Shown here piece by piece: positions 1 through 26,299 of a DNA stretch of 64,000 nucleotides. Under the pieces are notes generated by a model. The model worked only from the letters and a program-made list of their open reading frames with translations. It did no database searches and had not been told where the DNA came from. Source of the stretch: Sulfuricurvum sp. (GTDB taxonomy: Bacteria > Campylobacterota > Campylobacteria > Campylobacterales > Sulfurimonadaceae). The number at the start of each line of letters is the position of its first letter. Position 1 is the stretch's first letter. The DNA is taken from contig JAUYRN010000003.1 of assembly GCA_030696775.1 (NCBI GenBank), positions 1 to 64,000 on the forward strand, given 5' to 3'. The translations under genes were made by a program, and so were the position numbers.

Positions 1-326
1 AGAGCAGTAAATGCTGCTGCGTCGTTCATTGCCATATCAGCTAGAATTTTGCGATCAAGTTCGATGTTACCACGTTTAAGACCGTTCATGAAAACTGAGT
101 AGCTCATACCGTTCAAGCGACATGCCGCATTGATACGAATAATCCACAATTTACGAAATTCACGTTTTTTCTGTTTACGATCGCGGAACGCGTAGTACAT
201 ACTACGTTCAAGTTGCTCTTTCGCTTTACGGAAGTGCTTATGTCTTCCGCTATAGAAACCACGTGCAAGTTTCAAGACTTTCTTATGACGTCGGCGTCTT
301 ACAACACCTGTTTTTACTCTTGGCAT
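1..326 (-). CDS. rplT: 50S ribosomal protein L20 (3' end outside window)
   Basis: Component of the large ribosomal subunit that binds 23S rRNA early in assembly. Reading the minus strand from the ATG at 324-326 gives a protein starting [16 protein letters not shown], followed by the very basic L20 helix with [17 protein letters not shown] and later [14 protein letters not shown], both typical of L20. About 108 codons are present; the C-terminus lies beyond base 1. It is the last gene of thrS-infC-rpmI-rplT. In other bacteria L20 represses this operon, and two hairpins sit in the 101-nt gap upstream. Identity is certain from the sequence; regulation is inferred. Confidence 0.97.
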
Positions 327-374
327 ATTTTTCCTTTCTTTACCCGATTCATTTTAAAATTTAATGAATAGGTG

Positions 375-405
375 CCGCTTAGCGGACTTGCCCAGTATTT
401 ACTGG
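375..405 (-). promoter_or_regulatory. Two small hairpins in the rpmI-rplT gap
   Basis: The gap between rpmI and rplT contains CCGC-tta-GCGG (375-385) and CCAGTA-tt-TACTGG (392-405). Both are perfect inverted repeats upstream of the rplT start. L20 autoregulation through structured mRNA near rpmI/rplT is known in E. coli, so they could belong to such a control site or a processing site. The function is inferred only. Confidence 0.35.
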
Positions 406-427
406 AGAATTAAACAATCGAAGCTAA

Positions 428-622
428 TTAGCGTACGATCATCTTTTTGATGTTTTTCGCATCGACAGCAGCAACAATTTTAGGTGTTTTCTGCCCGCGA
501 CGAGTCCCTGCATCTTGTTTGGTCAAAATGTGACTGCGAAATGCTGTCCCACGTTTGAGAGTGCCGTTTTTCTTCACTTTGAAGCGTTTTACCGCCCCTT
601 TGACTGATTTCATTTTTGGCAT
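428..622 (-). CDS. rpmI: 50S ribosomal protein L35
   Basis: Small basic protein of the large ribosomal subunit. The 64 residues start [25 protein letters not shown], with the L35 pattern of clustered lysines, then [18 protein letters not shown]35 is usually 64-66 residues. It lies between infC and rplT in the usual order. The start is the ATG at 620-622. The 182-nt gap on its infC side contains an imperfect palindromic repeat, so part of its expression may come from a separate promoter or processing site. Confidence 0.97.
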
Positions 623-724
623 CGACTTGATCCTTTTGCAAAAATTCTCTGAATGAGACGCGGATTATACCATAAATTAAGAAAAAGTTAGTTTATATTG
701 AAATGAAAGAAGGCGACTCAAGAT

Positions 725-788
725 CCGTTCGCCCTGAGCTTCTCGAAGGGTGAAAGCATTCATGGTTCGACAGGCTCACCACGAATGC
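725..788. repeat. Small palindromic intergenic repeat
   Basis: A compound repeat between infC and rpmI. One half has CCCT...AAGGG arms around GAGCTTCTCG. The other is GCATTC-A-TGGT (756-766) facing ACCA-C-GAATGC (778-788) around a loop containing TTCGACAGGCTC. This TGGTTCGACAGGCTCACCA-type word is a dispersed palindromic element seen in many proteobacterial genomes. A close relative is inside the tamB reading frame at 44437-44464. A mobile repeat is inferred from the two copies. Confidence 0.6.
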
Positions 789-804
789 TAACACGTTAAA
801 TCTT

Positions 805-1335
805 TTATTTTTTATCGTCTTTTTTCGGATGGACCATCATATTACAATAACGACCTTCCATAGCAGGAGTTTTGTACATTAGTCCAATGTCTTCAACCAT
901 AGGCCAAACGCGATTTAAAACAGCGACAGCAGCTTCTGGATGCGCCATTTCACGTCCGCGTAAGAATACACGGAAGTGGACATGCTTACCTTCTTCGAGG
1001 AATTCACGCGCATGTTTCACTTTGTAACTCACATCGTTTTCAGCAATCTTAACTGAAAGTTTAATCTCTTTAACTTCCACTTTAGTTTGCTTTTTACGTG
1101 CTTCTTTTTTCTTTTTTTCTTCTTGATAATGAAACTTACCGTAGTCCATAATTTTTGCAACCGGAGGTTTTGCATCCGGAGAGATCAATACTAGGTCAAG
1201 CCCCAGTTCATTAGCTTTAGCCATCGCCTCTTGAATCGTTACAACTCCTAGTGCTTCACCACCATCTACTACACAACGTACCTCAGGAACTCGGATTTCC
1301 TCATTCATTTGGACTCGGTCTTGTTTTTTAATCAA
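805..1335 (-). CDS. infC: Translation initiation factor IF-3
   Basis: IF-3 binds the 30S subunit, blocks premature 50S joining and proofreads start codon pairing. The 176 residues have the N-terminal [12 protein letters not shown] segment, the linker [20 protein letters not shown] and the C-terminal domain with [16 protein letters not shown]. The chosen start is a TTG at 1333-1335 that overlaps the thrS stop (TTGA) and has GAGGTG six bases upstream. An ATG nine codons later (MNEEIR) is the alternative. Non-ATG starts on infC recall the AUU-based autoregulation in E. coli. It is cotranscribed with thrS. Confidence 0.96.
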
Positions 1336-3140
1336 AAATGCACCTCATTAATTTTTTCTTTTATTAAGTTCAAGAATTGTTCTTCACTTAAATTGTATTG
1401 TTCTCGCGAGCGACGATCGCGCACCGCAACACTCTTAGAGCCAACCTCTTCATCGCCCAAAACGATAATCATAGGAACACGCCCTTTTTCCGCCGTTCGG
1501 ATACGCTTATTGAGACTGTCGTTTTTATCGAAAATCTCATAATCCGCACCCATATCAATCAGCTTATTGCCCAATTCACGCGCATACGCAACGTGAGTTT
1601 CTGCAATCGGAACGATCGCAACCTGCGTTGGAGCGATAAACATTGGGAATTCCCCAGCGTAATGCTCCGTCAATATACCAATAAAACGCTCAAAAGAACC
1701 TAAAATTGCACGGTGAATCATTACAGGTTGAATTTTTACGTTCTCTTCCCCATTATATTCCAGCTCAAAACGCTCTGGAAGGTTAAAATCGAGTTGGATT
1801 GTTCCGCACTGCCATTCGCGTCCGATAGCATCAGTGATTTTAATATCAATCTTAGGGCCGTAAAATGCTCCGCCACCCTCATCAATCTCGTATGCGAGCT
1901 TATTTTTATCCATTGCATTTTTAAGAGCATTGGTAGAAATTTCCCATACTGCATCATCTCCAACCGCTTTTTCAGGTTTTGTAGAGATCATCATTTTATA
2001 GTTAAAATCAAAGGTTTTCATGATCTTATCAACGAAATCGACAACTTCGATGATTTGTTCTTCGATTTGATCCGGCGTACAAAAAATATGGGCATCATCT
2101 TGGGTAAATTCGCGAACACGGAAAAGCCCGTGAAGCGCTCCCGTCATCTCATGGCGATGAACGATTCCATACTCAAAGTATTTGAGAGGGAGATCACGAT
2201 ACGAACGTAAATCATGCTCATATACTTTGATATGCCCGACGCAGTTCATAGGTTTTACCCCAAACTCAATCTCATCGATATTCGTGAAATACATATTTTC
2301 GCCGTAATTTTGGTAGTGACCGCTCACTTTCCATAAATCAGAGCGAAGCATTTCAGGTCCGCGTACCGGCTCATACCCACGCTTGCGGTGAGCTTTGAAA
2401 AGAAGCTGCTCCAAACGTGAACGCATACGAGCTCCCGCAGGAAGCCAGATCGGAAAACCAGCGCCTACTTCTTCACGGAAGGTGAAAAGTTTCATCTCAG
2501 CACCGATTTTACGGTGATCACGCTTTTCGGCTTCTGCTACTTGTTCTAAGTATGCTTTTAGCGATTCTTTATCAGTAAATGCGATACCGTAAATGCGAGT
2601 CAACATCTCATTCTTACTGTCGCCACCAAGATACGCACCAGAAATTTTTGTGAGTTTGAAATAACGTATCATTCCTACATTAGGTAAATGAGGTCCACGG
2701 CAAAGGTCTTCGAATTCACCTTGCTTATAGATTGAAATCACATCATCAGGGATACGATCCATAACAGTTTGCTTCAAATGGTCATTTGCAAATTTTAGTC
2801 GTGCTTCATCTTTGGTAATCTCGTAACGCTCGATGACTACTTTGGATTTTGCAATATCGAGCATTTTTTTCTCGATCGTTTTCAAATCTTCTTCGCTAAT
2901 GGTTTCATTAACTTTAAAATCGTAATAAAAACCTTCTTTGACCACAGGTCCAACAAAGAATTTAGCATCGGTATAAAGTGCTTTAATCGCTTGTGCCATT
3001 AAGTGTGCACACGAATGACGAAGTACTTCAAGTGCGTCTGCAGAATTGTCCAGTTCTATTTCAGTACCGGTAATTCCACGTGAAAGTGCTGTTTGTAAAT
3101 CAACTATTTGATCATTATGCTTAATTGCAATAACATCCAT
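1332..3140 (-). CDS. thrS: Threonyl-tRNA synthetase
   Basis: Charges tRNA-Thr with threonine and edits mischarged serine. The 602 residues include the editing-domain HSCAH motif near residue 43, the second editing segment [13 protein letters not shown], class II motifs [20 protein letters not shown]-like and [16 protein letters not shown], and zinc ligands in MNCVGH, DDAHIF and MIHRA, followed by an anticodon-binding domain. E. coli ThrRS is 642 residues; here the N-terminal TGS domain is short, with only about 35 residues before the editing domain. It heads the translation operon and overlaps infC by four bases. Confidence 0.97.
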
Positions 3141-3239
3141 TGTAAAAGTTTCCAGTTCATAAGAAAAATAAGGCGAATTATACGATTTTGTTGATTGGTT
3201 TGAGTTTAAAGAGAGTTTTTAGGGAGAAATTTAAGAAGA

Positions 3240-3286
3240 AATGGTGGTCGCAACAGGATTCGAACCTGTGACCACTACCTTGTCGA
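3240..3286 (-). repeat. att site: displaced tRNA-Val 3' fragment
   Basis: These 47 bases are identical to 14656-14702 and cover the tRNA-Val 3' end from CCA through the T-arm to the anticodon region. After TGTCGA the sequence diverges from the gene, so this copy cannot form a tRNA. This is the expected product of integration into the 3' half of a tRNA gene, with the functional gene rebuilt at the other end. Confidence 0.92.
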
Positions 3287-3348
3287 AGTAATTTTAAAAC
3301 CCGATCTAAGCCCTATTTTACGGGCTTAGAGGCTTATTTTTTAGTCAC

Positions 3349-3371
3349 TTGTGTAACTATTGTGTAATTAA
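3349..3371. repeat. Integrase arm-type repeat, left end
   Basis: A 23-bp sequence containing TTGTGTAA twice (11 bp apart) is found here, just past the integrase stop codon. It recurs identically and in the same orientation at 14531-14553, near the other end. Paired short direct repeats just inside both att sites are typical of arm-binding sites for a tyrosine integrase N-terminal domain. The repeats are directly visible; their role is inferred. Confidence 0.65.
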
Positions 3372-4493
3372 TTATACACTTCCTCTGATCTTTTTGTCAA
3401 GCTCTTGACTTGCAAGAACGGCTATATCATTATTATTATGAATTGACTTGTAGTAAAATTTTTTTGTAACTGCTGAGCCAATGGCATGACCAATATTTGC
3501 TTGAATATATGATTCAGGAATATGACTATCATACATAATTGATACATAACTTTTTCGTGTTGCCTTAACCGTTTTATATTCAACCCCAATCGCCTTAAAA
3601 AGCGGTTTCACATGATTCTTAACAATAGTCGCATTGTCATAATGTGGTTTATCTTTATCTGAAACAAAAATCCATTTATCATTCTTCGCTTCTTGTGCAT
3701 AACTTTGAAGCAAATCTAACGCTTCAGGCATGAGATACACTTCTCGTCTATGATTCTTTTGTTTTGACGACATTTTGATCTTGCCTTGCGTTAATGATTG
3801 CTTTAGATTAATTATTTTTCTTTCAAAATCTATATGACTCCATTCAAGACCAAGTGCTTCTCCAACACGCATTCCAGTTGTAAACAAAATCGCAAAATAT
3901 ACTTTCAGCCAACCCTCGGAATTATCTAAAATTAAACGTATTTCATTTGTAGTATAAGCACTTAAGTCCACTTCATTCTCATCGACAAAAGCGTCTTGAA
4001 TTGGATTGGCGTGAATAAATGGATTCTCATTTATGAGTTTATATTTCAGTGCTTTTTTCATAATGCCATTTAGTATTCTTCTTATACGTCGTCGTCTATC
4101 TGCTGACAATTTCGCATGTAATTTCTCCCAACTCTCTATTTCTTTTATACCTATATCTTCCAGCTCATATTTCTCAAAAAATGGAACAATAAGTCTTTCA
4201 AAAATTGATAGATAATCTGCTTGCACTTCAGGACCACGTGCTTCAGCTGATTCTTCTATTGCAAGATAGCCTAAATTTTTTATTGTATATTCACTTTTTG
4301 GCTTTACTGCCATGCTAATAATTTTACTCAAAATATCCAATGGACGTTGCTTGGAGACCCAAGCAAGATTCATTTTTGTCGCTTTTTTTCCTGTAGATTT
4401 TCGTATAAATTTACCATTGATTGAACCTTGCACCCAAATAGTTTCACCACGGACGGTAAAGCTCCCGTCACCTCGTGTCTTTACATTACTCAT
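3372..4493 (-). CDS. int: Tyrosine-type site-specific integrase
   Basis: Catalyses integration, and with a helper excision, of the surrounding element at tRNA-Val. The 373 residues show an N-terminal arm-binding region (about 1-60), a core-binding helical domain (about 70-170) and a catalytic domain with Arg209 in GMRVGEALGL, Lys in the beta-hairpin KQKNHRREV, KATR at 310-313, His336 in NIGHAIG and Tyr347 or Tyr348 in KFYYKS. The box II HxxR is KxxR here, a substitution tolerated in some integrases. The ATG has AGGAG upstream and overlaps the preceding gene by ATGA. Its position beside the att fragment fits an integrase. Confidence 0.94.
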   Translation of the reverse strand: MSNVKTRGDGSFTVRGETIWVQGSINGKFIRKSTGKKATKMNLAWVSKQRPLDILSKIISMAVKPKSEYTIKNLGYLAIEESAEARGPEVQADYLSIFERLIVPFFEKYELEDIGIKEIESWEKLHAKLSADRRRRIRRILNGIMKKALKYKLINENPFIHANPIQDAFVDENEVDLSAYTTNEIRLILDNSEGWLKVYFAILFTTGMRVGEALGLEWSHIDFERKIINLKQSLTQGKIKMSSKQKNHRREVYLMPEALDLLQSYAQEAKNDKWIFVSDKDKPHYDNATIVKNHVKPLFKAIGVEYKTVKATRKSYVSIMYDSHIPESYIQANIGHAIGSAVTKKFYYKSIHNNNDIAVLASQELDKKIRGSV

Positions 4494-7109: not shown

Positions 7110-7379
7110 CTATAAATCATCCGCAAGCGGTGTAGGTTCAAAAAACTTAGCGATAGGCACATCCAAAACTTTACTCATTTTATACAGGTGTTCGATGTTG
7201 AAGTGTTTGTCATTACTGCATAATTCAGCAGCGGATACGAGGCTAACCGATTTGTATCCTATTTCATACGATAAAGCGAGCTGAGTCAACCCCCGCTCCA
7301 TTCTATAGTGCTTGACGTTTGCACCGATGAGTTTATAGATGTTTTGTATTTCTTCATCCGAAAAAGAGGACTGTGCCAT
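7110..7379 (-). CDS. Xre-family helix-turn-helix regulator
   Basis: An 89-residue single-domain DNA-binding protein. The Cro/C1-type HTH covers about residues 18-80: IGANVKHYRMERGLTQLALSYEIGYKSVSLVSAAE, then FNIEHLYKMSKVLDVPIAKFFEP, the usual end of these domains. It is probably the element's repressor. Operator-like words sit directly upstream of its start (7388-7452), between it and the plus-strand cargo genes, so it may control itself and the secreted-protein genes. No peptidase or toxin partner is visible, so a toxin-antitoxin role is less likely. Confidence 0.88.
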   Translation of the reverse strand: MAQSSFSDEEIQNIYKLIGANVKHYRMERGLTQLALSYEIGYKSVSLVSAAELCSNDKHFNIEHLYKMSKVLDVPIAKFFEPTPLADDL

Positions 7380-7387
7380 CTAGAAAC

Positions 7388-7452
7388 CCACCATAGTATT
7401 AGTATGGTTAAGTTTAGTTGGAATACAATACCCTATCAAACCACCATAGTGG
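7388..7452. promoter_or_regulatory. Putative operators for the Xre regulator
   Basis: The word CCACCATAGT occurs twice (7388-7397 and 7441-7450). The first copy forms ACCATA-N7-TATGGT (7390-7408), the second CCAC-cata-GTGG (7441-7452). Both lie between the divergent Xre gene and the cargo operon starting at 7527, as expected for operators of a dimeric HTH repressor. The repeats are visible; binding is inferred. Confidence 0.55.
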
Positions 7453-11087: not shown

Positions 11088-11459
11088 ATGTTCAGTGAAA
11101 TAAAAATTAAGACCTACAGTGCCCTACTCGGGCTGACTCCAAGTGAGTTGGATGACTTTATGAGACGATATAAATCATACTTATTAACGCAAAAGGTGAT
11201 CACAAAATCAGTGCTAATTAATGGATTATTTATCCTTGAAAAAATCCATGCTGAGAAATGGCTCATTGCTTCGGAAAAGGTGAAGTTAAAAACCAAAAAC
11301 ATAACCATTATTAGGTATTCTGAAAAAATAGTTGAACTTTATAAAAGCGGCATGGGAACGGCAAAAATAGTCAATCATCTCAAACTCAACCATCGTGTAA
11401 CCATTTCTAAGAGTGCGCTTGATCGTTTTATTACGGCTAATCGAATCAAGCGGGACTAA
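11088..11459 (+). CDS. Small HTH-like protein paired with a tyrosine recombinase
   Basis: A 123-residue basic protein with a perfect AAAGGAGGT ribosome-binding site. The N-terminal half (LLGLTPSELDDFMRRYKSY) is helical. The C-terminal half (KIVELYKSGMGTAKIVNHLK, then TISKSALDRFI) looks like a helix-turn-helix of the resolvase/transposase type. It ends six bases before the recombinase gene at 11466, so the two are probably an operon and may act on the same DNA site. The family was not firmly recognised; DNA binding is inferred from the HTH pattern. Confidence 0.7.
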   Translation: MFSEIKIKTYSALLGLTPSELDDFMRRYKSYLLTQKVITKSVLINGLFILEKIHAEKWLIASEKVKLKTKNITIIRYSEKIVELYKSGMGTAKIVNHLKLNHRVTISKSALDRFITANRIKRD

Positions 11460-11465
11460 AAAGGC

Positions 11466-12332
11466 ATGGCGAATTTAAGAGGTTCAAGTCTAAATAGGCA
11501 AATTGCTGACGCTTTCCACAGAATGGAGTCTTTTGGAGTAAAAAGACATGGCTCAAATGATCACCTCACTCACAGTGGTGCTGTTGCCAGCAAGCGTGAA
11601 ATGTATTTACGAGATTTCAAAAATTTTATGGAAAATAATCAGATCGACGGAAAACTCAACCAAGCCATAACCGCTGAAAATATGGATAAATTTTTGGAAC
11701 AACGAATGGAAAACTTATCACGAACTTCTCGTGAATCTTATACGAGAAGTTTTTCATCTATGTTGCGGGGATTACAAGAATCTAATGTTTCAATTGATTT
11801 GGATAAAACTTACTTCGATCAAAAGGTCGCTGAGATAAAGGAAATGCCCTCAGAAGAAGTGATAACAGGTCGGGCGGTAAAAGATGTAGAGAACGTCATT
11901 AAAGAGCTTTATAGCACACGTTACGAATCGGGTGTTATATCAGAAGTGCAATATTCACTGGGATTACGTGTAAGTGAGGCTATTGAACTTGTCCAAAATC
12001 ATGAAAAATACATTGATCATAATGAAGTTGTCGGATTGGTCGGCAAGGGAAATCATACATACGAGCCAAAAGACATTTCGCCTCAACTGGTAGCAAAAAT
12101 AATGACTGCTGAAAATATCCCCTCACAGAGCACCTATCGCAATGATTTATCTGAAGTTACCGATAATCAGCACACGCCACACGATTTTCGGTACAGTTAC
12201 GCTGAAAGAGAATATCACTCTAAAATTGAAGATGGCGTTGAATATCACCAAGCTCTTAAGGAAGTTTCGGAGGGCTTAAACCATAGCTTAGAGCGTGAGT
12301 CTATGACTCTTTATTATTTGAAGAGAGCCTAA
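11466..12332 (+). CDS. Second tyrosine recombinase of the element
   Basis: A 288-residue recombinase with a SAM-like core-binding domain (about 40-110) and a compact catalytic domain. Arg168 is in SLGLRVSEAIEL, Lys194 in VGKGN, HxxR is TPHDFR (His239, Arg242), His273 is in GLNHS and Tyr283 or Tyr284 in MTLYYL, so all catalytic positions are present. It is quite different from the integrase at 3372 and lacks the N-terminal arm-binding region. Possible jobs are dimer resolution of a replicating form, inversion of a local segment, or excision help. The adjacent 828-nt hairpin-rich region is a candidate site. Confidence 0.88.
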   Translation: MANLRGSSLNRQIADAFHRMESFGVKRHGSNDHLTHSGAVASKREMYLRDFKNFMENNQIDGKLNQAITAENMDKFLEQRMENLSRTSRESYTRSFSSMLRGLQESNVSIDLDKTYFDQKVAEIKEMPSEEVITGRAVKDVENVIKELYSTRYESGVISEVQYSLGLRVSEAIELVQNHEKYIDHNEVVGLVGKGNHTYEPKDISPQLVAKIMTAENIPSQSTYRNDLSEVTDNQHTPHDFRYSYAEREYHSKIEDGVEYHQALKEVSEGLNHSLERESMTLYYLKRA

Positions 12333-12360
12333 TAACGGCTATAGAAGCCGTTATTGAGGG

Positions 12361-13881
12361 CTAAAATTCTAAAGGTTGATTCATTAAAAAATCCCCCTCT
12401 AGTTGCACGGATTCTTCTTCGGAAAGAGTCATTCCAATTCTTCTACCTCTCGTTTTTTCGCCTTTGACTCTTTGAGTAATTGACTCGCCAAGGTTCGAGA
12501 ATATGACTTTGTTTCTATACTGAATATCATTTGACTTTTCAGTTACCAGCAACACAAACAAAAAATCTAATGACTTTGCAGAAATAAATCTGTGCTCAAA
12601 TTCATCTTCAAGATTTTTCAACATTGCTCTATGCTTTTTAATGTAGATTATAAAACTGTCTGAAAATCCTGAAGCAAATTCTAAGGATTCGTAACCATCT
12701 ACGACTGCTTCAATCTCTTGAGTCACTCCAAGAATATTCAACTTCTTGATATAACCAAAAACAAGTTCAACATTTCCAGTGGTAGCCACTTTCGCCATTG
12801 CTTTGCTTTTAGTTTCAAATAGCGACGTAGTTCTCTTTCTGTCAAATTTATATCTCGCTAAAATTTCTATAAATTTTAACTGTTCTTTTTTGAGTAGCAC
12901 AATGAATTCGCCTATCTCTAAATTGAATTTTTCTTTTGCAATGGTAGCTAATGACTTTTCTTGCTTAAAATAATTAAACCGTCTATCATTAGGCGAAATT
13001 TTAACTGCCAACGGGTGATTATTGCACAAAAATGTTATGAAATTGTTTTCGCACCTATAGGTCTTTTCGCTTTTTATATTTGCCGTAAAATAGGCATTGG
13101 TAATAAACTCTTTTACCTTTTCTATTGTGCCAGTTGATTTACTAAAATCACTTTTTACTTCGTCAAAACATACAACTAGCTTATTGATAATATAGCCATT
13201 AAATGAGCTTTCAAGATTGCTCGCATTAATATTTTCACAATATTCACCAAAAATATGTGCCAACACCACCTCTATCAAGACTCCCTTTCCTGCCCCTTCC
13301 GTTCCTGAAAGAAGAAATGCAGATGGAATTTTTTCTCTCTCGTTTACAAATACAGATAAATAATTGATAAAATAATCGACAGCTTCATGATTGTCTTCAA
13401 ATAGATTTAACAGCAATGCGTACGTTAATGGAATCTCTTTTTTAAATTCTTCCGCCGTATAGTCGCATTTTTTCATTTTTTTTCTCATCTGATCAATCTC
13501 TGCGAGCTTAGTTTTCTTCTCATTAAATTCATTCAGATAAAAATCACCATCCTCGGTAAAGCTAAATGGTTTTTTAATATCAAAAACAGTATTGACTTTT
13601 TTAAGTCCGAGTAGGAATTTATCTTTGACATCTTCCATAAGAGGAAATGCCATTTTGATATGTTGCTTAGCTGCCAATGAAGTCAAAAGCTCAATCTCAC
13701 CTGTTTTGCTATTAAAAAGTATGTATGAGCTTCTTGTAAAGTCAAAAAATAAATACTTATTTGGTCTTATCTCACCAGTTTCACGTAATCTTTCGGCTGT
13801 AAAGGTTGATACTTTTTTTGCTGGAGGATTTACCACCTCTACTGTTTCGATGGTAGCGTCAATAGTTTGCAATGCAGACAT
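12361..13881 (-). CDS. Superfamily 3 helicase / DUF5906-type replication protein
   Basis: A 506-residue protein whose central part is an SF3 helicase: Walker A GTEGAGKG (about 193-200), Walker B KLVVCFDE (about 234-241) and motif C with NFITFLCNN (about 280-288) followed by the arginine pair at 300-301. This layout matches phage/plasmid primase-helicases such as P4 alpha and NrS-1-type proteins, but the N-terminal 150 residues show no primase motif, so it may be helicase only. It probably unwinds the element's origin; an iteron-like array lies about 300 nt upstream. The ATG follows GAGGTGG, and the 47-aa ORF upstream is cotranscribed. Confidence 0.88.
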   Translation of the reverse strand: MSALQTIDATIETVEVVNPPAKKVSTFTAERLRETGEIRPNKYLFFDFTRSSYILFNSKTGEIELLTSLAAKQHIKMAFPLMEDVKDKFLLGLKKVNTVFDIKKPFSFTEDGDFYLNEFNEKKTKLAEIDQMRKKMKKCDYTAEEFKKEIPLTYALLLNLFEDNHEAVDYFINYLSVFVNEREKIPSAFLLSGTEGAGKGVLIEVVLAHIFGEYCENINASNLESSFNGYIINKLVVCFDEVKSDFSKSTGTIEKVKEFITNAYFTANIKSEKTYRCENNFITFLCNNHPLAVKISPNDRRFNYFKQEKSLATIAKEKFNLEIGEFIVLLKKEQLKFIEILARYKFDRKRTTSLFETKSKAMAKVATTGNVELVFGYIKKLNILGVTQEIEAVVDGYESLEFASGFSDSFIIYIKKHRAMLKNLEDEFEHRFISAKSLDFLFVLLVTEKSNDIQYRNKVIFSNLGESITQRVKGEKTRGRRIGMTLSEEESVQLEGDFLMNQPLEF

Positions 13882-14035: not shown

Positions 14036-14216
14036 TTAGTTACCTCTTATATTTAGATTAAGAATGGAAGTATTAACTTCTATTCCTTGACGACATTATG
14101 CTTTTATTAAACTTAATGGAAGCTTACACTTTCGTTTTTATATTTTACTTGACTAGCTTTATTATTTTTGTTGATTGTTTATTCATCCGCTCTTCCCTCT
14201 CTTAAATCATTACTGC

Positions 14217-14511
14217 GCCCCGAAGGGGCAAAATACATTAGTCTGAAGAGTTGGAACGAAGCGGAACGACTTTTAAGGAATAGGTTCCAATGACGTTCCA
14301 GCTGAAACCACGTATATGTGGCGTTTATATATCTATTGGAACTATGGAACTCTATATTTAAAAATAATTCTAAAGTAAAGGATATAAGAGAGAGTCTACA
14401 TAAAAGACTATCAGCAAAAAAATAAAGTAGCGTTCCACCAGCTTCATGCTTGAAAAATTCGTACGACAGGGAGCTGTAGATGGAACGCCAATCTTTAAAA
14501 AGAACGTTCCA
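14217..14511. repeat. Iteron-like TGGAAC/GTTCCA array, putative replication origin
   Basis: In about 260 bp there are eight copies of TGGAAC or its complement GTTCCA (at 14252, 14284, 14295, 14337, 14345, 14432, 14481, 14506) plus CGGAACG at 14262. Five are the 7-mer TGGAACG/CGTTCCA. Several pairs are spaced 8-10 bp apart, about one helical turn. A GCCCC-gaa-GGGGC hairpin (14217-14229) stands at the left edge. The array lies in the 622-nt non-coding stretch (14036-14657) upstream of the SF3 helicase, the usual place for an iteron origin. The 114-codon minus-strand frame through it is not called. Confidence 0.6.
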
Positions 14512-14530
14512 TGCAAAATTCACAGAAAAA

Positions 14531-14553
14531 TTGTGTAACTATTGTGTAATTAA
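14531..14553. repeat. Integrase arm-type repeat, right end
   Basis: Identical 23-bp copy of 3349-3371 with two TTGTGTAA words, in the same orientation, about 105 bp inside the right att repeat. See the left copy for interpretation. Confidence 0.65.
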
Positions 14554-14657
14554 GTTGTCAATTTATTGTCGATTTTGACAATTTTTACGATAAAAATAGA
14601 GTGTGATTTTAGTGCTTAAAAAGCGTTTGTAAAGCCTATGAGGAGGGGGTTTGTGAA

Positions 14658-14733
14658 TGGTGGTCGCAACAGGATTCGAACCTGTGACCACTACCTTGTC
14701 GAGGTAGTGCTCTACCAACTGAGCTATGCGACC
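14658..14733 (-). tRNA. tRNA-Val (GAC)
   Basis: A 76-nt gene including CCA. On the minus strand, the acceptor GGTCGCA pairs with TGCGACC, the D-arm is TAGCTCAGTTGGTAGAGCA, the anticodon stem CTACC flanks the loop TCGACAA (anticodon GAC), and the T-arm is ACAGG-TTCGAAT-CCTGT. It is the integration site of the element; its 3' 45 bases are part of the 47-bp att repeat. Confidence 0.97.
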
Positions 14734-14773
14734 ATTGGGGCAGAATTATAATGAGTAAGAGGTTAAATATGAC

Positions 14774-15217
14774 TTAACTCTTACACATCTTCGGTTTATA
14801 ATTTAAAATAAACAACCACAGGACTGCAATATCAATCATCACATCCGCTGCATTAAACACCGCAAAATTGAAACCGCAATGCCAATACACGTAATCAACC
14901 ACTCCGCCGTAAATAAAACGGTCAATTACATTTGAAAGTCCAGCCCCCACCATTATTCCTACTGGAAGTAGGTAGCATTTTTGTTTTAACCAAAGCGTGT
15001 AGGCTACAACCCCCGCTAAAAGAGCAAGCTGTATCCATTTTAACGACTCTTCCAAAAAGGCAAACATTGAAAATGCCACCCCTCTATTGTAAACTAAAAT
15101 CAAATCAATACACTGAGTATAGGCACGAAAACCCTCAACAAAAAGAGTTTTAAGCAATTGGTCGGCAACAAAAACTCCGATAACTACTAATATAAAAAGG
15201 ACAAAAGACTTAGCCAT
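14774..15217 (-). CDS. lspA: Lipoprotein signal peptidase (signal peptidase II)
   Basis: Inner-membrane aspartic protease that cleaves the signal peptide of diacylated prolipoproteins. The 147 residues have four membrane segments and the two catalytic aspartates in [18 protein letters not shown] and [12 protein letters not shown], plus the conserved [10 protein letters not shown] region. The usual length is about 150-165. It overlaps the glmM 3' end by eight bases and is the last gene of that unit before tRNA-Val. Confidence 0.96.
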
Positions 15218-16550
15218 TTAATGCCTTTTCAAAAAATTCCACCAATCTCGCCATCTCTTTTTCCATTACTTTTGAGTCTTTGCTTTCCATTAGAATCCGG
15301 AGCTTATTTTCAGTTCCTGAGTAACGTATAAGATGCCGAACATGAAGAGCTTCAGTCTTTTTTAGTTCCTCTTCAAGCCCTTCGATTTCAGCTAATGGCT
15401 TTTTATTTTTAACTTTGATATTTACCAGCTTTTGAGGATAAAGCTTAAATGGACGAAGAACTTTACTCGCCTTTTGCCCTGTCGTGAGAAGTAATGACAA
15501 GATTTGGAGCGCACTCATCAATCCGTCACCCGTTTTAGCATAATCATGCAAGATAATATGACCGCTTTGTTCTCCTCCAAAGTTAATACCGTTCTCTCGC
15601 ATCACTTCCAATACATATTTATCCCCGACGTTAGATCGGAAAAGTTTCAGCCCATTTTCTTTCATGCTATCTTCGAGGGCTTGGTTACTCATAACAGTGG
15701 CAACAACACCACCCCCTTTGAGCTGACCATTTTTATTTAAAAAGAGCGCTAATGCCCCAAGAATCTGATCCCCATCGACCTCATCTCCCTTTTCATCGAC
15801 AACAATAAGACGATCCGCATCTCCATCGAGAGCCAAACCAATATCAGCACGATATTTTTTCACTGCTTCGCGCAGATCTTTGGTATGCAGTGCTCCGCAT
15901 CCCTCATTAATGTTAAATCCATTAGGTTTATCATGCAACACGATCACTTCAGCACCCAACTCTTCAAGCACCGTTGGTCCCACTTTATACCCTGCCCCAT
16001 TGGCCGTATCTAATACGATACGTAACCCTTGCAGTGTCAATTCACGACTGAATGAGTTTTTGAGCTGAACGATGTAGCGACCGATAACGTCATCAATTCG
16101 TTTTGCTGCACCGATTTGTTTACCTATAACCTGTCCCTCTTCCAGACGGGCTGTGTCCTGCGCGATCGCTTCAATTTGGGCTTCAATCTCTTCGGAGAGT
16201 TTATTTCCTTGAGCATCGAAAAATTTAATCCCATTATCTTCAAACGGATTGTGACTTGCCGAAATCATAATCCCAGCATCACATCGCATATTCAACGTCA
16301 AAAATGCAATTGCCGGAGTCGGCATTGGACCGATTTCTATTACATCATATCCCACGGCTGTCAGTCCGCTTACAATTGCGTTTTCAATCATATAGCCACT
16401 TTTGCGGGTGTCTTTACCGAGTAAAATCTTTTTGGTTCGGGCATGAGCGCTAAAATAAATTCCTGCTGCCATCGCTACGCGCATCGCCAATTCTGCCGTT
16501 AAAAACGAGCCCGCTTCACCACGTACACCATCTGTTCCAAACAATTTCAT
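15210..16550 (-). CDS. glmM: Phosphoglucosamine mutase
   Basis: Converts glucosamine-6-phosphate to glucosamine-1-phosphate for UDP-GlcNAc synthesis. The 446 residues start [14 protein letters not shown], with the active-site phosphoserine loop [12 protein letters not shown] (about residue 100), the metal loop DGDADR (about 240), the sugar-binding GGEQSGH and the C-terminal phosphate-binding [10 protein letters not shown]. All family motifs are intact. It is divergent from rpsT and overlaps lspA. Confidence 0.97.
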
Positions 16551-16644
16551 AGTAATTTCTCCCTACTGTATAAAATTTAACTTAATTTTAATTATCTTTA
16601 AGGTAGTATTCTACCCTAAAAAAAATTCGACAAGGATAAATGCC

Positions 16645-16911
16645 ATGGCAAACCATAAGTCAGCATTGAAACGTATCCGTCAGACGGAAAAACGCACTGA
16701 GCGTAACCGATTCTACCGCACACGTGTAAAAAACATCGTTAAGGCCGTTCGTACTGCAGTAGACGCAGGGAACAAAGAAGAAGCACAAGCAGCACTTGTT
16801 ATTGCAAATGCAAACTTACACAAATACGTTAGCAAAGGTGTCTTGAAAAAAGAAACTGCTGCTCGTAAAGTAAGCCGTCTTCACCTCGCTGTTAACAAAC
16901 TCGCAGCGTAA
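16645..16911 (+). CDS. rpsT: 30S ribosomal protein S20
   Basis: Primary 16S rRNA-binding protein of the small subunit. The 88 residues start [20 protein letters not shown], with the basic three-helix pattern and the C-terminal [21 protein letters not shown] typical of S20. AAGGA lies upstream of the ATG. prfA follows 68 bases downstream. A GGTAG-tatt-CTACC inverted repeat overlaps the likely promoter at 16602-16615. Confidence 0.97.
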
Positions 16912-16979
16912 ATTTTTGCCTTAGGGCAAACTTTCCTCTTATTATCCACTTTTTTTAACTCCTCTTTTAGGAATCACTT

Positions 16980-18047
16980 ATGTTATCCGATAAACTCACC
17001 CCTTTTATTAACCGTTACAACGAGCTCACAACACTTTTAAGTTCACCTGACATCGGAAACGATATCAAACGCATGACCGATCTTTCCAAAGAACAATCCT
17101 CTATTGCTGCCATTTATACCAAAGCAACCGAATATAAAAAAGTATTGGAAGAGATTGAAGAGAACAAAGCTCTCGCATTTGATGCAGAATTGGGTGAACT
17201 TGCAAAAGAAGAACTCAAAATATTAGAGCCTCGAGTGGGTGAGCTCGAAGAAGAGATCAAAAAACTTCTTATTCCGACTGATCCTAACGACAAGCGTAAT
17301 ATCTTTATTGAATTACGGGCGGGAACAGGCGGAGATGAAGCGGCGATTTTTGTCGGTGATTTGTTTAATGCTTATGTCCGTTATGCGGATGTACGTGGAT
17401 GGAAAATCGAACTCATGAGCACCAGCCCCTCAGATGCCGGCGGATTTAAAGAAGTCATTGCCCTTATTAAAGGCGATCAAGTCTATTCACGCCTCAAACA
17501 CGAAGCGGGTGTCCACCGTGTTCAGCGTGTCCCTGCTACGGAGTCTCAGGGACGTGTTCATACTTCAGCGATTACCGTTGCCGTTATGCCGGAAGTTGAT
17601 GACGTAGAAGTTGTCATTAATGAAAGCGACCTCAAGATCGACGTTATGCGCTCATCCGGCTGCGGCGGACAAAGTGTCAATACCACGGACTCTGCGGTAC
17701 GGATTACCCACCTTCCAACAGGTATCGTCGTCAACAACCAAGATCAAAAATCGCAGCACAAAAATAAAGATAAAGCGATGCAAATTCTTAAAGCCCGTAT
17801 TTATGATATGCAAATGCATGAAGCGAAAGAAAAAGAGATGAATGAGCGTAAAGATCAAGTGGGAACTGGGGATCGAAGTGGACGTATCCGAACCTACAAC
17901 TACCCTCAAAACCGCATCTCCGATCACCGCATTACGCTGACTCTTTATCGACTCGAAGAGATTATGCAAGGGGGATTGATGGATGATATTATCGAACCGT
18001 TGATTGCCGATATGCAGTCAAAACTGATGGAGAGAAACGGGTTATAG
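16980..18047 (+). CDS. prfA: Peptide chain release factor 1
   Basis: Recognises UAA and UAG stops and triggers peptide release. The 355 residues include the stop-codon tripeptide in [10 protein letters not shown] (PAT, as in RF1 rather than SPF of RF2) and the catalytic loop GCGGQSVN with the methylated glutamine. E. coli RF1 is 360 residues. It follows rpsT, a common pairing in this phylum. A 63-codon overlapping frame at 17611 is not a gene. Confidence 0.97.
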
Positions 18048-25435: not shown

Positions 25436-26299
25436 TTAGTTATTCCTCAATGCGGTGTATTCTTGCGGAATACAAAAATCACGTGCATCCATTTTTTGAT
25501 CAAAAAAGTTGTGTTTATTTCCTATCTCAAAGAGCTTGTTAATCGCTTCAAATTGTATATCGCTTAGACTTATTGATTCATCATTCGCATACAATTCAAG
25601 ATATTTTTCCAATGTTGCTGCATCAATACGAACTAAAGACCGCTCAATAAGCATTTTTGAAAGAAGCTCTTTGTGATCTCGTGCTACCTGCACCGCTTTA
25701 GTAAGAAGATTTTCATACGAAATAGCCGATGTAAGCGGTAGCGAACGTCGAATCGCCATCCCGCCGAGCGGTAATGGTAGAGAACCACCGCTTAACTCAC
25801 ACCAAATATCCCATAATTCTCTCTCGACAACCAAAGAATCATCGTATCCTAAAATACTTTCATGAATCAATACGCCGGCATCGACCGTACCATCTATAAC
25901 CGCTTGCTCGATCTCCAGAAAGTTCATATACACGATCTTTGCATCAGGATACGCTACACGGAAAAGAAGAGCATTGGTCGTATATTTTCCACTAAGCGCT
26001 ACTTTAAATTTACGTTTTAGTACCGTATCGCGCTTACGAATAAGTTTGGGACCGTACCCGCTTCCAAAACTTACCGCTGTACGAAGAAGCGCGTATTCTT
26101 GGGCGATATGAGGGTACAATCCAAAACTTATAGCGCTTATATCGTAGGTCCCTTTGAGGGCTTCCACATTAAGTGTTTCAATATCAAGTGCTATATTTTC
26201 GAAAATGGTATTCTCACGGCCTACCCATCCAAACTTGATGGCATAATACATAAAAATATCGTCCGCATCAGGAGAGTGAGCAATTACCATTTTTTTCAC
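25436..26299 (-). CDS. mqnD: 1,4-dihydroxy-6-naphthoate synthase (futalosine menaquinone pathway)
   Basis: Converts cyclic de-hypoxanthine futalosine to 1,4-dihydroxy-6-naphthoate. The 287 residues have the periplasmic-binding-protein-like fold of MqnA/MqnD with HSPDADDIFMYYA at the N-terminus, DISAISFGLYPHI, GYGPKLI and LPLPLGGMAIRR, matching MqnD of this phylum. MqnA is the paralogue and the main alternative. Menaquinone is the expected respiratory quinone. It heads the mqnD-fliQ-murB unit. Confidence 0.9.
   Translation of the reverse strand: MKKMVIAHSPDADDIFMYYAIKFGWVGRENTIFENIALDIETLNVEALKGTYDISAISFGLYPHIAQEYALLRTAVSFGSGYGPKLIRKRDTVLKRKFKVALSGKYTTNALLFRVAYPDAKIVYMNFLEIEQAVIDGTVDAGVLIHESILGYDDSLVVERELWDIWCELSGGSLPLPLGGMAIRRSLPLTSAISYENLLTKAVQVARDHKELLSKMLIERSLVRIDAATLEKYLELYANDESISLSDIQFEAINKLFEIGNKHNFFDQKMDARDFCIPQEYTALRNN

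Follow-up and report, generated by a model that had tools for sequence, protein, structure and literature searches.

The window, as we call the whole 64-kb stretch of Sulfuricurvum sp. DNA analyzed here, carries an integrative element of ~11.4 kb inserted at tRNA-Val (Table 1). We derive this size from a 47-bp att repeat together with an empty site in a relative, G461, in which window flanks 1–3290 and 14656–18046 join at one tRNA-Val (L294, 3880–3930). Compared over its full length, the GlmM protein of the window shares 84–94% identity with Sulfuricurvum records. Near both ends of the element lies an exact 23-bp repeat, and related sequence is found beside tRNA-Val in G437 and also in a sister element in G435; these repeats are probably integrase arm sites, distinct from the iterons described below. 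The original prediction placed the end of the iteron region at 14553, but that coordinate belongs to the right copy of the 23-bp repeat. A sub-threshold Rfam match to the HPnc0260 antisense RNA (window 14545–14696; 53.7 bits against a cut-off of 59) overlaps the tRNA-Val 3′ end on the opposite strand and is probably driven by the tRNA sequence.

The element encodes an integrase and a rep-like helicase, along with a second tyrosine-recombinase-like gene that might resolve multimers of a replicating element. The module containing this second recombinase has homologues in G412 and G461, at 85–86% protein identity, within otherwise different elements. The element also encodes Sel1-repeat genes, outer-membrane-type genes, and an HTH_3 protein (7110–7379). 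Just upstream of the helicase gene is a 47-aa ORF with no family match. Among the element ORFs checked, we recognized no primase and no partition or packaging gene, and no PICI hallmark genes (terS, capsid interference) were recognized in the element.

Table 1. Features of the element and its repeat array, in window coordinates.
Feature	Position	Strand	Remarks
attL, 47-bp core copy	3240–3286	+	direct repeat; partial tRNA-Val 3′ end
Left arm-type repeat	3349–3371	+	exact 23-bp copy of 14531–14553
Element integrase (tyrosine recombinase)	3372–4493	-	Phage_integrase 1.2e-19
Small ORF (11088–11459) and second tyrosine-recombinase-like gene (11466–12332)	11088–12332	+	weak XerC/D matches
SF3 helicase (DUF5906 / P4-family primase_Cterm), 506 aa	12361–13881	-	NrS-1 polymerase C-terminal-region type
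Small ORF, 47 aa	13892–14035	-	same direction as helicase gene; AGAGGT-like ribosome-binding site
TGGAAC, either strand	14252+, 14284-, 14295-, 14337+, 14345+, 14432-, 14481+, 14506-		word count
TGGAACG, either strand (n = 5)	starts 14252, 14294, 14431, 14481, 14505		word count
Variant CGGAACG	14262–14268		GGAAC core from 14263
Left putative iteron group	14252–14350		GGAAC-core sites 14252+, 14262+, 14284-, 14295-, 14337+, 14345+
Iteron-free AT-rich spacer, ~81 bp, 77% AT	14351–14430		candidate DNA-unwinding element
Right putative iteron group	14431–14511		CGTTCCA 14431–14437 (-); inverted pair TGGAACG-N17-CGTTCCA 14481–14511
Right arm-type repeat (TTGTGTAACTATTGTGTAATTA...)	14531–14553	+	exact 23-bp copy of 3349–3371
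attR, 47-bp core copy	14656–14702	+	in intact tRNA-Val(GAC) gene 14658–14733 (-)

The helicase carries the SF3 signature (Walker A, Walker B, the motif C Asn, and an arginine finger), and G193, G198, K199, E241, N288, D299, and R301 are invariant across 21 homologues. It matches Pfam DUF5906 above the cut-off (7.8e-14) and TIGR01613, the P4-family primase C-terminal model, below the curated cut-off (3e-11). The best structural match of its predicted model (mean pLDDT 75.7, with only modest confidence in the C-terminal part) is 6k9c, the C-terminal region (CTR) of the NrS-1 polymerase (Z 31.9; 407 aligned residues, spanning model residues 27–483); a profile search agrees (E 2.6e-68), and the next structural match is the SaPI5 primase-helicase at Z 17.2. 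The rmsd of 11.4 to 6k9c suggests that the domains of the model are displaced relative to one another. As modeled, residues 27–483 adopt the CTR fold, with head, helicase, and tail domains like those of NrS-1 (PMC7102993, PMC8718748). The NrS-1 protein also has an N-terminal PrimPol and an HBD, whereas the window helicase matches the C-terminal region alone, has neither of these domains, and gives no PrimPol family hit. Residues 408–481 (three helices, two strands) give the impression of a winged helix, in a region modeled with modest confidence. Single-protein scans of genome contigs and viral contigs returned no close helicase relatives; none were found among plasmids, and phages gave distant ones only.

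A repeat array between the helicase operon and the element end

Between the helicase operon and the right end of the element, ~370–630 bp 5′ of the helicase, eight exact TGGAAC/GTTCCA words and one CGGAAC are packed into 14252–14511, with the end of the array 145 bp from attR. The original prediction had described eight copies of a 6-mer, five of them as TGGAACG/CGTTCCA, plus one variant within ~260 bp, beside an SF3 helicase gene and near the element end, and we located all of these. It had also described copies paired at 8–10 bp; start-to-start spacings of 8 and 10 bp were found, although 11 bp also occurs, and the remaining spacings are irregular. The array follows a simple plan, with six GGAAC sites, a ~81-bp AT-rich spacer, and then three further sites. 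Against a background AT content of 62%, 80-bp windows as AT-rich as this spacer or more make up 1.8% of the element.

TGGAAC is not enriched in the 64-kb window as a whole (34 observed, 29.0 expected), and it is the clustering alone that is exceptional. No other 6-mer cluster in the window, homopolymers aside, ranks above the eight copies in 260 bp, which have a log10E of –5.4 when scored against the window and –6.9 when scored against the element. The claim that this density is beyond chance held up under Markov resampling of the 774-bp intergenic region, in which none of 3000 randomized sequences reached eight copies and the best cluster of any non-AT 6-mer had six. Clustering across the 2.55-Mb genome was assessed through paired-word patterns. 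We counted nine direct-orientation TGGAAC pairs separated by 2–14 bp, of which two fall inside the array, and TGGAACG-N0-30-CGTTCCA has a single occurrence, which is the array itself. On the point of density elsewhere in the genome, on which the original prediction hung, the word is not equally dense elsewhere in the window, and close pairs are rare genome-wide.

The second-best word cluster of the window, six copies of ACCGCT at 25639–25904, lies in a coding gene (25436–26299), and this word is frequent across the window (42 copies). A hairpin-like GCCCCGAAGGGGC is present at about 14217–14229, just outside the array. An ORF that runs across the array (14179–14523, minus strand) has no family match and was judged spurious.

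Word clusters beside homologous helicases

We collected homologous helicase loci across the phylum Campylobacterota and the family, 28 in addition to the window. Apart from copies of the window's own locus, no stretch of 300 bp next to another helicase or recombinase contained more than three TGGAAC words. When the intergenic region was used as a DNA query, no conserved array emerged, and the only hits were short and partial, some of them to arm-site-like sequence. Because TGGAAC is not densely clustered beside the other helicases, we recast the test as one for any clustered word, a change made only once the outcome for exact TGGAAC had been seen. For each locus, we took 5 kb on each side of the helicase ORF and scored the most improbable cluster of 6–8-mers on either strand, calling it significant at log10E ≤ –3; same-composition random sequences never fell below –2.0.

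A significant cluster was present in 15 of the 28 divergent Campylobacterota loci, and in 11 of these 15 it lay ≤700 bp from the helicase ORF, where ~13% would be expected by chance; the corresponding P = 2.1e-7 is optimistic, as the loci are partly dependent (the word of G447, for example, recurs in G452) and we set both the 700-bp limit and the log10E –3 limit ourselves. There were two near misses. The array of G375 lies at +850 because the ORF as read ends at an in-frame stop. In G258, an array adjoining the gene is outranked by another repeat. With this exact-word method, 13 of the 28 loci had no significant cluster. The pattern was weaker in an IMG/VR set, in which the proteins are mostly longer: 18 of 80 loci had a significant cluster, 6 of the 18 near the helicase. 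On the search for the same array upstream of homologous helicases, which the original prediction had proposed, the arrangement is conserved and the word is not. A cluster often adjoins the gene, but TGGAAC itself is not conserved, and the arrays of relatives lie mostly just 3′ of the helicase gene.

The clustered words vary among elements and include AGTGTAAC, GATACTAA, AGGGTCTA, GGTGCA, GGGTGGA, CTGTGGCA, and AGGAAC, among others, a variation to be expected of initiators that each recognize an iteron of their own. G143 has GGTGAACA repeats 3′ of the helicase. G487 shares the GGAAC core with the window array; there, two sets of seven GGAAC copies, inverted relative to each other, flank a spacer of 116 bp that is 77% AT. 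Beside the other homologues the window word is not conserved. In G056, where the array lies 5′ of the gene, 8 + 8 copies surround 137 bp at 73% AT, and the array spacers of G143 and G258 reach 90% AT. The spacers of G447, G452, and G565 are short and not AT-rich, so a plan of iterons, AT-rich spacer, and iterons is common but not universal.

Other short features appeared in these loci. Small CCCTA...TAGGG-like hairpins (e.g., CCCCCTATTTTAGGG) are found in or near the array spacers of L046, L047, L048, L062, L112, and L117, and could possibly be priming or structural sites. L117 also has five copies of TATTCACA at about 7247–7388, near the contig end of G487:C365, which we take to resemble a DnaA-box-like word. 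In G163 (L102, 12022–12175), six copies of GGTGATAA overlap the start of ORF 12099–12641, and these read as a GDKV/GDKK-like coding repeat.

Sister elements that lack the helicase offer a further comparison. The G435 element has a 76% identical integrase and the same att core, and G412 and G461 carry the second-recombinase module. No helicase homologue was detected in any of the three, and the stretches of them that were examined had no strong word cluster, indicating that the array accompanies the helicase and not integration or the second recombinase. Near its recombinase, G435 has a replication-like gene of a different type (Replicase/PriCT-like), and so does G412, judging by sequence resemblance.

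The phage NrS-1 (AB746912) provides the same arrangement around a studied enzyme, its polymerase gene, like the window helicase gene, adjoining an iteron-like array. The best word cluster of its genome is AGTGTAAC, with 11 copies at 17062–17377 (log10E –24.4), just 3′ of the primase-polymerase gene 14895–17051 (L293), and all 11 GTTACAC words of the 37-kb genome fall within this interval. The array overlaps the annotated gene NRS1_29 (17055–17456), which may be spurious. In PMC8718748, the priming word of the NrS-1 polymerase is given as 5′-TTTGGTTA-3′; we found one exact match in the genome, at 17198–17205 on the minus strand, within the array. PMC7102993 places the 8-nt sequence in NrS-1 twice, once per strand, near the genome center, as compared to our exact count of one, and proposes that these sites possibly serve as an origin. 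The array goes unmentioned in the passages of PMC7102993 and PMC8718748 that we consulted.

A candidate replication origin and its alternatives

We hypothesize that the array is an iteron origin of the ~11.4-kb element, resembling those of PICIs and SCC and read by the element's own SF3 helicase. This is very probable in our judgment, since the genes of related helicases are often accompanied by a repeat cluster of their own with a different spelling. The suggestion of a possible iteron origin in the original prediction thus gains support, as an interpretation, from the cluster statistics and from the helicase-array association among homologues.

Several known systems bear on this proposal. 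Classical iteron plasmids (Rep_3/RepA) have tandem direct iterons of ~17–22 bp with regular spacing and a Rep_3-type initiator. We rejected an origin of this class for the window, as its words are short (6–7 bp), occur in both orientations with irregular spacing, and neighbor an SF3 helicase. The alpha protein of P4-type satellites, which has a fused TOPRIM primase and an iteron origin with the iteron word GGTGAACA, is like the window helicase an SF3 protein of the TIGR01613 P4 family, the window match being below the curated cut-off.

PICI origins consist of two iteron sets flanking an AT-rich region, an organization described as unique to PICIs (PMC6092414). The PICI/SaPI rep-ori and the window have in common an integrative element, an SF3 helicase-type initiator, and an element-specific iteron word, and the six and three GGAAC sites around the window spacer follow the PICI-type plan. 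The PICI origin lies immediately 3′ of the initiator gene, whereas the window array lies 5′ (–630 to –370), and for this reason we do not file it as a PICI origin. NrS-1 differs in a similar way, with a 3′ array of the word GGTTACACTTT in a complete phage as opposed to a 5′ array in an integrative element. The SCC helicase Cch2, of the D5 type, uses its C-terminal domain to bind short direct repeats next to its gene (PMC7581432). Judged by this description, Cch2 of SCCmec resembles the window protein in that both are helicases of the D5/Primase_Cterm type, belong to integrative elements, and have short direct repeats nearby; it differs in reading three AAGTG repeats 3′ of the gene and in working beside the CCPol-MP primase (PMC7581432).

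The array could instead be mainly a transcriptional operator of the helicase operon, bound by the helicase, the 47-aa protein, or the HTH protein (7110–7379), with the origin elsewhere. Its location upstream of the operon and the presence of an HTH_3 protein in the element fit this idea, and autoregulation through iteron binding is frequent in plasmids. However, nine sites around an AT-rich spacer, spread over 260 bp and starting ~220 bp upstream of the operon, would make a large operator, most relatives have their arrays 3′ of the helicase gene, where an operator is not expected, and there are no TGGAAC copies near the HTH gene. We consider this explanation improbable. Still less probable is that the repeats are accessory or arm sites for the integrase, the second recombinase, or an excisionase, as the proximity of the array to attR and the two tyrosine-recombinase-like genes might suggest. 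The 23-bp TTGTGTAAC repeat near both ends fits integrase arm sites better, the left element end has no GGAAC array, and elements with a 76% identical integrase or an 86% identical recombinase do not have such an array.

Clusters of short repeats can also serve as partition, packaging, or incompatibility sites. A site of this kind in place of an origin is about as improbable as recombination sites, given that we recognized no matching genes among the ORFs checked and that the association is with the helicase gene. Least probable of all is that the repeats form the stems of a structured RNA transcribed across the region. On both strands, the region is predicted to fold more stably than its shuffled versions (z –4.3 and –3.5), but a similar signal on both strands is what DNA sites in both orientations would give, and no Rfam family covers the array at threshold. 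We judge the fold signal a by-product, because inverted copies of any word can pair with each other. Each of these readings, whether operator, recombination, RNA, or partition/packaging, is at odds with at least one comparative observation.

Returning to the array as an origin, we infer a mechanism from features read in the sequence, namely the element with both ends, the array with its plan, the family of the helicase, and the association of array and helicase across homologues. Copies of the 506-aa helicase, the proposed iteron-binding initiator, would bind the GGAAC-core iterons flanking the spacer, either on the excised circular element or upon induction. They would then form hexamers, melt the AT-rich spacer, and load themselves to serve as the replicative helicase. 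Synthesis would presumably fall to the primase and polymerase of the host, since we found no primase in the element. Because the iterons lie upstream of the helicase operon, their binding may also keep that operon repressed. Counting against an origin are the irregular spacing and orientation of the sites, the 5′ position, a word that is mostly unconserved, the lack of a recognized primase, the 13 of 28 loci free of clusters, and the weak IMG/VR pattern, as well as the modest model confidence in the C-terminal part of the helicase, where an origin-binding domain would lie.

More broadly, and with little more than even confidence, we suggest that helicases of the NrS-1 C-terminal-region type, whether or not fused to a PrimPol, make up a wide class of enzymes in the mobile elements of Campylobacterota that read origins and load themselves, each paired with a short iteron word of its own on either side of an AT-rich region that melts. 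On the same footing, TTTGGTTA would be a piece of the iteron array at the true NrS-1 origin, and the PICI-like plan would not be confined to PICIs.

With this analysis, an integrative element from an environmental bacterium of the Sulfuricurvum type gains a candidate origin. The helicase family, known chiefly from a single enzyme of a deep-sea phage, may also follow a general rule by which each initiator gene moves along with an iteron array of its own. The comparison with NrS-1 would give the phage origin a place that extends beyond an 8-mer, and would extend a PICI-like plan beyond PICIs. Matched pairs of initiators and iterons would aid in comparing how SF3 initiators alter their DNA specificity.
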